Made by a program: the position numbers and the translations under genes. The notes beneath the pieces are model-generated. The model made no database searches. It saw only the letters and a program-made list of their open reading frames with translations, and was not told the origin of the DNA. A stretch of DNA of 34,569 nt from an uncultured Cetobacterium sp. (GTDB lineage: Bacteria; Fusobacteriota; Fusobacteriia; Fusobacteriales; Fusobacteriaceae), in contig NZ_CAMTIK010000023.1 in assembly GCF_947072685.1 (NCBI RefSeq), positions 1-34,569 on the forward strand. Reading direction: 5' to 3'. Shown here piece after piece: positions 22,468 through 34,552 of this stretch; position 1 is the first letter of the stretch; every line of letters begins with the position of its first letter.

Positions 22468-22495
22468 TTGTTTTTTTCTCCTATTATGTTATAAT
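22468..22495 (+). promoter_or_regulatory. Promoter of the Tyr leader and AgcS symporter
   Basis: TTGTTT (22468-22473) and a perfect TATAAT (22490-22495) lie 16 bp apart, with TG one base before the -10 box (extended -10). Transcription would start near 22502, about 20 nt before the leader peptide start codon, giving a leader RNA of about 230 nt before the symporter. Confidence 0.78.
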
Positions 22496-22522
22496 ACATA
22501 AAATAAATTTTTGGAGGAAAAT

Positions 22523-22579
22523 ATGGAACAAAAAGTAATGTTTAATATAAATTCATATTACTATTATTATCTAACCTAG
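22523..22579 (+). CDS. Poly-tyrosine leader peptide (attenuator)
   Basis: An 18-codon ORF, translation MEQKVMFNINSYYYYYLT, ending in TAG. GGAGG (22513-22517) is 5 nt upstream of the ATG, an excellent ribosome binding site. Codons 12-16 (22556-22570) are five consecutive Tyr codons (four TAT, one TAC). It lies between a strong promoter and an intrinsic terminator that precedes a transporter gene, the classic layout of a ribosome-mediated attenuator such as the trp, his or phe leaders. The expected behaviour is stalling at the Tyr run when charged tRNA-Tyr is scarce. I know of no named example of this leader, so the identity is inferred from layout. Confidence 0.85.
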   Translation: MEQKVMFNINSYYYYYLT

Positions 22580-22700
22580 GGTTGGTATTTTTGTTTCATT
22601 CAAAAAATACGAATCCACTTTGTGTTACCGGTTAATAACTAGTAAGATGGATTTGTTACATAGAACTGTTAGTTTGCAGCCTGTGGTCAATCCACAGGCT
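22579..22700 (+). promoter_or_regulatory. Attenuator RNA with alternative pairings
   Basis: Four nested pairings, each excluding the next, can be drawn. 0:1 is GGGTT plus GTATTTTTG (22579-22593) with CAAAAAATAC plus AATCC (22601-22616). 1:2 is ACGAATCCA (22609-22617) with TGGATTTGT (22648-22656), 9 bp including one G-U. 2:3 is TGGATT (22648-22653) with AATCCA (22689-22694). 3:4 is the terminator stem. A ribosome that reaches the TAG at 22577-22579 would cover strand 0 and favour 1:2 and the terminator. A ribosome held on the Tyr codons leaves 0:1 free to form, releasing strand 2 to open the terminator. Folds were found by eye; energies were not computed. Confidence 0.65.
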
Positions 22701-22707
22701 TTTTTTT
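22678..22707 (+). terminator. Intrinsic terminator of the attenuator
   Basis: AGCCTGTGG (22678-22686) and CCACAGGCT (22692-22700) form a perfect 9-bp, GC-rich stem with a 5-nt loop, followed by seven T residues. It lies upstream of the AgcS start codon (22733) and downstream of the promoter, so it can only act as an attenuator, not as the end of a preceding plus-strand gene. Confidence 0.92.
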
Positions 22708-22732
22708 ATTTTTTTAATCTTAGGAGGTCATT

Positions 22733-24073
22733 ATGAATTTTTTAGAAACTATTGTTAATTTTTTAAACTCCATTCTTTGGGGTAAAAATCTACTTGTTGT
22801 CTTACTTATTTTTTCAGGAGTATTTTTTACTTTTAAAACAAATTTTGTACAAATTCGTTTTTTTAAGCATATGATTGCTCTTTTATACGAGAAATCTGAT
22901 AACAACAATCAAAACCTTTCACCTTTCCAAGCGTTTTGTATCAGTACTGCCACTAGAGTTGGAGCTGGTAATCTTGCTGGTGTTGTCAGTGCAATCTCTA
23001 TTGGAGGAGCCGGTTCCATATTTTGGATGTGGGTCGTTGCTTTTTTAGGTTCTGCAACTGCTTTTATAGAAACAACTTTGGCTATAATCTTTAGGGAACA
23101 AGATAAAAATGGAACTTTTTTTGGAGGCCCATGTTTCTTTTTAAAAAATGGTCTGGGCAAAAAGAGTTGGGGAATTGCCTTTGTTTTTACTGGGATAATT
23201 TGTTGGGCTGGCGTTCTACAAGTTGTATCCAATTCTGTTACCGAATCTTTTAATGTAGCTTTTAATTTAAATCCTTTTATAATGGCCGGACTTTTAACTC
23301 TTATGGCCGCCATCGTAATTTTTGGAAAAACTGATAAAACTGCTAAAATTTTAGATAAAGTAGTTCCTTTGATGGCTTTTTTATACCTAGCTATTGTATT
23401 TTTTATAATCATAAAAAACTTCAATCTGCTTCCAGATGTTTTTACTCGTATATTCTCAGAAGCATTTGGTATAAGACAAGGAGTAGGTGGAACTGTTGGG
23501 GCTATCGTCATGCAAGGTGTTAAGAGAGGGCTTTTTTCTAACGAAGCTGGAACTGGAAGTGCTCCTTGTGCTGCTGCTAGTGCTAACGTTTCTCACCCTG
23601 TTCAACAGGGGCTTATCCAAAGTTTAGGTGTATTTGTAGATACATTTGTTATCTGTACAGCTACTGCACTCGTTATGCTTTTAACAAAGGAATCAATCAT
23701 TCAAAATTTAAATGGAATGGAACTCCTACAAAAATCTTTTAACTACCATTTAGGTTCAACTTTTGGAGAGATTTTCGTAGCTATTATTCTTTTTCTTTTC
23801 TGTTTTTCAACCCTTCTTGGAATATGTTTTTATGGAAAAGTTAACGTTAAGTTCTTAACAGATAAGGAAATTGGACAAACTTGTTTTAAAATTTTTGCTC
23901 TATCTATGATTTTTATTGGTGGAATTCAACAAAATATTTTTATGTGGAATCTAGCTGATTTAGGGCTTGCTCTTATGACAATAATCAATTTATCTGGGGT
24001 TTTTCCCCTTTCAAAATTTGCATTTGATTCCTTAAAAGATTATGAATCTAAATTTATAAAATTAAAAATTTAA
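22733..24073 (+). CDS. AgcS-family sodium:amino-acid symporter, probably tyrosine-regulated
   Basis: 446 residues with about eleven membrane segments. The family signature is clear: TRVGAGNLAGV (~74-84) followed by GGAGSIFWMW (91-100), and a conserved NEAGTGSAPCAAA segment (~271-283). Members are sodium-driven amino-acid transporters, usually annotated as alanine or glycine carriers. AGGAGG lies just upstream of the ATG. The preceding attenuator has a leader peptide with five Tyr codons, so expression is predicted to rise when tyrosine is short; tyrosine or another aromatic amino acid may be the actual substrate. That specificity is inference. It is a single-gene unit ending at the 24081-24110 terminator. 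Confidence 0.92.
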   Translation: MNFLETIVNFLNSILWGKNLLVVLLIFSGVFFTFKTNFVQIRFFKHMIALLYEKSDNNNQNLSPFQAFCISTATRVGAGNLAGVVSAISIGGAGSIFWMWVVAFLGSATAFIETTLAIIFREQDKNGTFFGGPCFFLKNGLGKKSWGIAFVFTGIICWAGVLQVVSNSVTESFNVAFNLNPFIMAGLLTLMAAIVIFGKTDKTAKILDKVVPLMAFLYLAIVFFIIIKNFNLLPDVFTRIFSEAFGIRQGVGGTVGAIVMQGVKRGLFSNEAGTGSAPCAAASANVSHPVQQGLIQSLGVFVDTFVICTATALVMLLTKESIIQNLNGMELLQKSFNYHLGSTFGEIFVAIILFLFCFSTLLGICFYGKVNVKFLTDKEIGQTCFKIFALSMIFIGGIQQNIFMWNLADLGLALMTIINLSGVFPLSKFAFDSLKDYESKFIKLKI

Positions 24074-34204: not shown

Positions 34205-34552
34205 GGGGATGCAAAGGTTTCGACAGGGTTGTGAGGTTATAAGTAGCAGGCCAGGTTGATCGCTGTGAGAGATCAACTCATCGTTTAGATGGAAACAATA
34301 ATTACGCTTTAGCTGCATAATGACAGCTCACCTTTGAACTTTCTTTTCTGTAGGAGCGTTCAGCCAAGGTGTCACTTAAATACAGATTACCCTAAGCGAT
34401 TTCTCTAAGTTCTAGGGGACATTTCAGAGAATAGCTTTTGTTAGCCCTGTTTGTGGGAGTAACATTTGCGAAGTTAAATAGCAAACTAAGCTTGTAGAAG
34501 CTTATGGCACTTGCGATTTTGGACACGGGTTCGATTCCCGTCATCTCCACCA
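34205..34552 (+). ncRNA. ssrA: tmRNA (transfer-messenger RNA)
   Basis: About 348 nt, one-piece form. The 5' end GGGGATG (34205-34211) pairs with CATCTCC before the terminal ACCA (CCA encoded at 34550-34552), forming the alanyl acceptor stem. The 5' block GCAAAGGTTTCGACAGGG and the 3' T-arm with GGTTCGATTCC are typical. The tag frame starts with a GGA resume codon at 34291 and ends with TAA at 34318-34320, giving GNNNYALAA. It rescues stalled ribosomes together with SmpB. The gene is complete; the 17 nt after it show no terminator. Confidence 0.96.

Follow-up and report, generated by a model that had tools for sequence, protein, structure and literature searches.

An AGCS-family transporter gene in the window (the whole stretch of DNA that was analysed, 34,569 nt) is very probably controlled by ribosome-mediated transcription attenuation that senses charged tRNA-Tyr, and its leader would belong to a modular family in which the specifier codons have been swapped. 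We base this reading on sequence comparison and on energy models: the helices, their co-variation, the match of codons to genes and the spacing from the codons to strand 0 are all computed. The transporter probably imports tyrosine. We found the features expected of such an attenuator: a short translated ORF with clustered codons (five Tyr codons in the window), mutually exclusive terminator and antiterminator helices, a specifier that fits the gene (in the family the exceptions are two Fe-ADH genes and one contig end) and, in an equilibrium model, a fold that shifts with the position of the ribosome as expected. Table 1 gives the positions of the individual parts.

Table 1. Parts of the leader and the downstream gene, with positions in the window.
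Feature	Position	Strand	Basis
Leader of AGCS-family symporter gene	22490-22733	+	
TATAAT, likely -10 box of leader promoter	22490..22495	+	sequence
GGAGG, Shine-Dalgarno sequence of leader ORF	22513..22517	+	sequence
Leader peptide ORF MEQKVMFNINSYYYYYLT*	22523..22579	+	equivalent ORF in 82/82 model R3 leaders
Specifier, five Tyr codons in a row	22556..22570	+	
Strand C, codon region; partner 22629-22651	22553..22573	+	duplex, minimum-free-energy fold, swap tests
Strand 0 (GGGTT.GTATTTTT)	22579..22592	+	duplex with strand 1; covariation
Strand 1 (AAAAATAC.AATCCA); partner strand 0 or strand 2	22603..22617	+	duplex, covariation
Conserved single-stranded stretch 3' of strand 1	22618..22629	+	alignments A3, A7
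Strand 2	22629..22663	+	duplex energies, folding, swap tests
Strand 3 (CTGTGGTCAATCCA)	22681..22694	+	duplex energies, folding, swap tests
Intrinsic terminator: 9-bp stem 22678-22700, T run 22700-22707	22678..22707	+	sequence, terminator scan
AGCS-family Na+/amino-acid symporter, proposed regulated gene, 446 aa	22733..24073	+	PF01235, TIGR00835

On the -35 side of the leader promoter there is only a poor match (TTGTTT, 22468-22473), and the TATAAT scored below the thresholds of the promoter scan and is hence unlisted by that scan. The terminator hairpin reads AGCCTGTGG-TCAAT-CCACAGGCT; it is strong and presumably functions as a terminator in the cell. The terminator scan reported 2 sites compared to 0.1 expected from shuffles. 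The leader fold has a z-score of -3.45 against 200 shuffles, one of which folds equally well. For the symporter the closest named relative shows 87% identity and was found in an uncultured Cetobacterium genome (L038), and we regard Cetobacterium as the probable origin of the window. The family consensus of the single-stranded stretch is ATTTTGTRTTA, and in alignment A7 the unpaired CATTTTGTRTTA at this place is conserved irrespective of the specifier class, which could be explained by a transcription pause or a factor site. Another terminator-like hairpin with a T-rich tail, CTAACC-TAG-GGTTGG (22571-22585), overlaps the leader stop codon and strand 0; judged by eye it is weaker in relatives and it is probably a chance product. 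The window also holds a tmRNA gene (34205-34552) with the tag GNNNYALAA.

An earlier, sequence-only reading of this stretch had proposed a five-strand switch built on two copies of AATCCA (22612-22617 and 22689-22694), a single TGGATT (22648-22653) and a GGGTT at the leader stop codon (22579-22583). These positions are exact, and the first G of GGGTT is shared with the stop codon TAG (22577-22579). The pairings it claimed all exist, the helices 0:1, 1:2, 2:3 and the terminator are mutually exclusive, and a switch of this kind is supported by swap tests, covariation and state-dependent folding. Two of its elements needed correction. The second AATCCA does pair, but it is no free strand: its AAT forms the terminator loop and its CCA opens the 3' arm. 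Likewise the 2:3 antiterminator exists, but it had been drawn too short and really reaches into the terminator 5' arm. A fourth helix, between the specifier codons and strand 2, was absent from that reading. Strand 2 can pair with the codons (through 22629-22651), with strand 1 (through its TGGATT) and with strand 3 (through 22648-22663); strand 3 comprises the 5' arm, the loop and the start of the 3' arm of the terminator and is the antiterminator partner of strand 2.

We propose that six segments interact, namely the codons (C), strands 0, 1, 2 and 3 and the terminator 3' arm. A ribosome stalled on the early or middle Tyr codons would cover C, 0:1 would form and strand 2 would be left free; UGGAUU[UGUUA]CAUAG would then pair with CUGUG[GUC]AAUCCA and hold the terminator 5' arm, and the polymerase would read through. 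Once the ribosome has reached the last Tyr codon or the stop codon, it would cover strand 0, which would allow 1:2 and with it the terminator to form. With no ribosome on the leader, strand 2 would be paired with C, the two enclosing the 0:1 hairpin, and here too the terminator would form. Across the homologues in the Fusobacteriaceae this scaffold appears to have been retained and the specifier codons exchanged.

The extension of 2:3 is formed by CATAG (22659-22663) and CTGTG (22681-22685, terminator 5' arm), and it is this extended helix that makes 2:3 a real antiterminator. In the window the long helix pairs UGGAUU...CAUAG with CUGUG...AAUCCA, in L138 (upstream of TyrRS) it has 11 bp (UGUAUUAAUAG:CUGUUGAUACA) and in L143 (upstream of MetRS) it reads GUCUGCC:GGUAGAC. 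AATCCA is missing from the terminators of L018, L019, L026, L029 and L031, where the short UGGAUU:AAUCCA core is lost. The idea that 2:3 is a mere by-product of the terminator was overturned by the swap tests, in which the longer helix swaps its partners jointly. We also discarded, by eye, a hairpin between two copies of GTTAC, which is lost outside the genus, and, within strand 2, a further small ORF at ATGGATTTG, which varies in length and end and has no Shine-Dalgarno sequence.

The swap test is free of alignment: the duplex energy of a leader's own strands is compared with that of strands from other leaders over 20,000 permutations. The first set contained 19 leaders in 14 classes, with one representative per class, and the second 34 representatives with a core identity below 72%; the second leaders of two tandems (L127b, L130b) were part of the 14-class set only. 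For 0:1, 1:2, 2:3 and codons:2 not one of the 20,000 permutations reached the native mean in the 14 classes, where the segments taken for strands 0 and 1 overlap one another in L138. With the 34 representatives, in which short hairpins may cause similar overlaps, the z-scores were -9.8 (0:1), -10.9 (1:2), -7.3 (2:3) and -8.0 (codons:2) and the native strands were ahead in 20,000 of 20,000 permutations. The control pairings behaved differently: in the 14 classes the native value was matched by 18,938 permutations for 1:3, 2,413 for 0:2, 18,793 for 0:3, 19,685 for codons:3 and 5,996 for codons:1, and the z-scores of 1:3, 0:3, codons:3, codons:1 and codons:0 ranged from -1.2 to +1.6 for the 34 representatives. 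Compared with a shuffled strand 2 in tests on single leaders, 2:3 reached p <= 0.05 in just 17 of 34.

Compensatory changes in homologues, which the sequence-only reading had suggested looking for, are present in 0:1, 1:2 and 2:3. Both sides of 0:1 and of 1:2 change among the aligned Tyr-transporter leaders. For 1:2 we counted 31 doubly changed cells compared to 10.8 +/- 3.2 in 35 sequences, a count that is lowered by the misalignment of L145, L156 and L158 in strand 2 of A7. In the 81 distinct rows of A8 there were 120 such cells compared to 46.1 +/- 9.1 after shuffling (0 of 500 shuffles that high), with the caveats that the fitting of A8 used the 1:2 structure and that for this count it still includes the opposite-strand match L175, dropped from A8 in other analyses. 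For 0:1 the count was 16 compared to 7.5 +/- 2.4.

For the state-dependent folding we used an equilibrium energy model. With the transcript ending at 22694, AAUCCA:UGGAUU stood at 0.64 when Tyr codon 1 or 3 occupied the A site, at 0.05 with the ribosome at the stop codon and at 0.00 without a ribosome. This bears out two predictions of the sequence-only reading, namely that strand 0 is blocked by a ribosome that has come to the stop codon, which permits 1:2 and termination, and that a stall on the early Tyr codons does not disturb 0:1 and keeps strand 2 free for 2:3. At transcript end 22696 the terminator stood at 0.01 in the stalled, 0.47 in the stop and 0.06 in the naked state, and once the transcript reached 22698 it was dominant in all states. 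The stall and stop states of the window diverge only across a few nucleotides of transcript (22694-22697), and the 5-bp CAUAG:CUGUG portion forms in every state. At equilibrium the full-length RNA is won by the terminator in every state. Thus the switch would have to be kinetic, with the choice falling while the 3' arm emerges.

We repeated the folding for 34 leaders, the window and 33 representatives (L158 was dropped as the run pattern missed its Met codons). The antiterminator was higher in the mid-run stall than at the stop codon in 21 of the 34, lower in 5 and equal in 8, and the terminator was higher at the stop codon than in the mid-run stall in 21 and never the reverse. The Pro leader in the window's genome (L188) showed no switching under the energy model. 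As modelled, these results support both translated states of the sequence-only reading and oppose its untranslated one. There, 0:1 was thought to form first and to free strand 2, so that naked RNA would read through, unlike the trp leader. We regard this as unlikely, though in the naked window RNA 0:1 does stand at 0.62-0.79 and CAUAG:CUGUG at 0.69-0.95 for transcripts ending no later than 22696, and across the 34 leaders the terminator is higher at the stop codon than in naked RNA in 9 and lower in 4. However, the pairing of the codons with strand 2 is backed by the whole family; in the naked window RNA it takes UGGAUU away, so that a strong antiterminator is missing and the fold resembles the termination state. 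Furthermore the antiterminator was lower in naked RNA than in the mid-run stall in 24 of 34 leaders and higher in only 2. A classical trp leader is on with a stalled ribosome, off after completed translation and off without translation. Since the codons pair with strand 2 when no ribosome is present, ribosome-mediated attenuation as modelled here gives the same output in all three states and reaches it by a different route.

We then looked at how far the element is distributed. Among 35 AGCS loci a leader was found in 16 and at none of the other AGCS genes: L001 and L009-L016 belong to the genus of the window, L017-L019 to two other genera, and in L026, L028, L029 and L031 two Tyr leaders in series precede one gene. 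Each of these tandem leaders has its own fold and terminator, and the second, e.g. MKFKFNYYYYYYLLNLGHRV, belongs to the family but has diverged. Covariance model R1, built from Tyr-transporter leaders only, matched 28 places in 24 of 98 Fusobacteriota genomes; four opposite-strand matches (L119, L121, L124, L125) were excluded via a lower threshold. It also found Met-codon leaders before MetRS, MetN and homoserine dehydrogenase, Trp/Phe/Tyr-codon leaders before DAHP synthase and Tyr-codon leaders before TyrRS. Model R2 matched 91 places in 42 of the 98 genomes at a loose threshold of 0.1. Of 59 R2 loci that were examined 53 have a leader, including three Met leaders missed by the first script, and L186, L187, L191, L193, L195 and L203, which lack one, were judged false. 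The core-only model R3 gave 122 places in 46 of the 98 genomes, four of them opposite strands of others; 45 of 61 Fusobacteriaceae genomes were matched, with one weak match elsewhere (E 0.042), and none of 20 genomes from other groups, a convenience sample without a positive control. All 36 further R3 loci that were examined have a leader ORF. The E-values of the models are rough and many of the sequences are related. For the statistics below we used 82 leaders with E <= 0.001, drawn from 99 loci. The window's own genome has three members: the Tyr leader described here, a Pro leader before PutP (L188, C5:23081) and a His leader before a basic-amino-acid SBP (L209, C2:3734).

The 82 leaders fall into the specifier classes His (31), Tyr (16), Pro (13), Met (10), aromatic (5), Asn (4), Trp (2) and Thr/Ile (1), the class of L243 being taken from its separately read ORF. 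Genes were named by NCBIfam. All 13 Pro leaders precede PutP and all four Asn leaders AsnA. The 31 His leaders precede basic-amino-acid SBP genes (24, several of which score below the NCBIfam cut-offs, so that only their family is assigned) and HisZ (6), and one lies at a contig end before its gene. Tyr leaders were found before AGCS (9) and TyrRS (7), and all 10 Met leaders before Met genes: MetN (4), homoserine dehydrogenase (2), MetRS (2) and OAH sulfhydrylase (2). Both Trp leaders precede an SNF-type transporter, the Thr/Ile leader aspartate-semialdehyde dehydrogenase and the aromatic leaders DAHP synthase (3) and Fe-ADH (2); the two Fe-ADH genes after aromatic/Met leaders break the codon-to-gene rule. 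At L235, L241 and L244 an Fe-ADH/glycerol-dehydrogenase-like gene is preceded by the leader MSLRKVRAMFWFMYYFKT..., in which codons for Phe, Trp, Tyr and Met are mixed. At L237 the leader MFKIKFTWQSWYFED with two Trp codons lies before a family 5 solute-binding protein gene, possibly for Trp-linked peptide uptake. In L182:251-1606 the Thr/Ile leader (MFRLTITTTIIIM) is followed by two glycine riboswitch aptamers and the aspartate-semialdehyde dehydrogenase gene. A glycine riboswitch (RF00504) also lies upstream of another AGCS paralogue in the window's genome (L005:1282-1374, G000:C19), so that different RNA sensors separate the paralogues within a single genome.

In 79 of 81 leaders the last specifier codon starts 8-13 nt upstream of strand 0 (L243 was left out, as the script chose another ORF). 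Given the size of the ribosome footprint, the leading edge of a ribosome on the last specifier codon would reach strand 0. The stop codon had been taken as the positional register, which does not hold in the family: its offset to the start of the core match varies from -1 to +23 nt among leaders, or from 1 to 23 nt without the -1 of the mis-picked ORF in L243. The fixed spacing from codons to strand 0 and the variable stop position are our strongest single argument and suggest that the position of the ribosome is what is read.

The different specifier classes might also have separate origins and resemble each other by convergence under the same geometry. Terminators and hairpin loops do differ widely, and besides the codon run the leader peptides have little in common. 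Convergence seems rather improbable, as R1 was built from Tyr transporter leaders alone and yet finds Met and aromatic leaders at unrelated genes, and both the unpaired CATTTTGTRTTA and GGRTTTGTA are common to different specifiers. Common descent of all members would account for these similarities. Control of translation, in which the leader peptide or structure governs re-initiation or access to the transporter start, is very improbable: the leader ORF sits just upstream of the transporter and re-initiation at leaders is proposed as a general effect in the part of PMC4833913 available to us, but a terminator was detected behind 82 of 82 leaders, strand 3 is built into it and the downstream Shine-Dalgarno sequence lies outside all helices examined. 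A T-box or an amino-acid riboswitch that senses tRNA or ligand directly would fit the gene classes (aminoacyl-tRNA synthetases, transporters) and the exchangeable specificity, but we consider it practically ruled out by the lack of Rfam and RF00230 matches, with no T-box match throughout the genus of the window (12 genomes, its own, G000, among them), no Rfam 15 family at gathering score for the window's leader and nine other member loci (best matches far below; in the window only the tmRNA scored), and a specifier that consists of a codon run within a translated ORF that has a Shine-Dalgarno sequence.

T-box matches are rare in the phylum, with 27 places in 20 of 98 Fusobacteriota genomes and 2 genomes above the cut-off; G041, G042 and G045 have three T-box-like matches each. 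A 2008 survey, in the sections accessible to us, lists zero T-boxes for 2 Fusobacteria/Thermotogae genomes (PMC2494555). The available part of a survey from 2010 names leader-peptide attenuators only for Proteobacteria, Actinobacteria and, newly, Firmicutes (PMC2965389). Our partial coverage of the literature on attenuation and leader peptides in Fusobacteria gave no description of these elements, and a prior description is possible. Lopatovskaya et al. reportedly described attenuators upstream of synthetase genes in 2010.

Taken together, we think it fairly likely that the family is a leader-peptide counterpart of the T-box in the Fusobacteriaceae: copies of one ancestral attenuator would have come to lie before genes for transport, biosynthesis and aminoacyl-tRNA synthetases and would have been re-specified by exchange of the codon run (Tyr, His, Pro, Met, Asn, Trp, mixed aromatic or Thr/Ile). 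On this reading the fixed spacing from codons to strand 0 would convert the ribosome position to three alternative RNA states, and CATTTTGTRTTA, which is conserved, would act as a pause or factor site by which ribosome and polymerase stay synchronised. Leader-peptide attenuators are usually seen as one-off inventions for each operon. If the members are indeed homologous, attenuation can spread and change its specificity as the T-box does. The codons would also provide a rule for the substrates of transporters (Tyr for this AGCS protein, His for an SBP) in a phylum to which fish-gut and human-associated bacteria belong, and the family would offer natural codon-swap experiments on how the ribosome position is read.

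Ribosome-mediated transcription attenuation, as described in general terms in the accessible text of PMC9413887, is the class in which we place the element; as we read it, the common re-specifiable scaffold and the extra deciding strand are new. With the enterobacterial trp, his, phe and thr attenuators it shares the short leader ORF with a codon run, the competing helices and the intrinsic terminator. It departs from the trp-type arrangement of four strands, in which the stalled ribosome covers strand 1 and no further strand takes part: here a conserved 0:1 competes with 1:2, the extra strand 0 chooses between them and the ribosome at the stop codon acts by covering strand 0. It further differs from the enterobacterial attenuators in that the antiterminator strand has the codons as a pairing partner and that a single conserved RNA scaffold is used for many amino acids. 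To our knowledge the classical leaders have no such common scaffold. Similar systems are also the His leader peptides of bacilli before hisZ and hisS* (accessible part of PMC2965389) and the his attenuators of Firmicutes (PMC9413887, likewise in part). Compared by description, these also place His codons before hisZ and have similar 5' UTRs common to two paralogous genes, whereas they are confined to His and to Firmicutes. The uORFC-13-1 motif before aroF in Acholeplasma (available portion of PMC8632094) resembles, again by description, the leader-type control of DAHP synthase in L134-L136 and L142, but it is limited to Acholeplasma and has a Phe codon run. The T-box riboswitches, for which RF00230 gave no match in the window or in G000, are alike in that one scaffold with an exchangeable specifier is found at genes for the synthetases, the biosynthesis and the transport of many amino acids. 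They bind uncharged tRNA, whereas the present family would sense through a translating ribosome and a run of codons.
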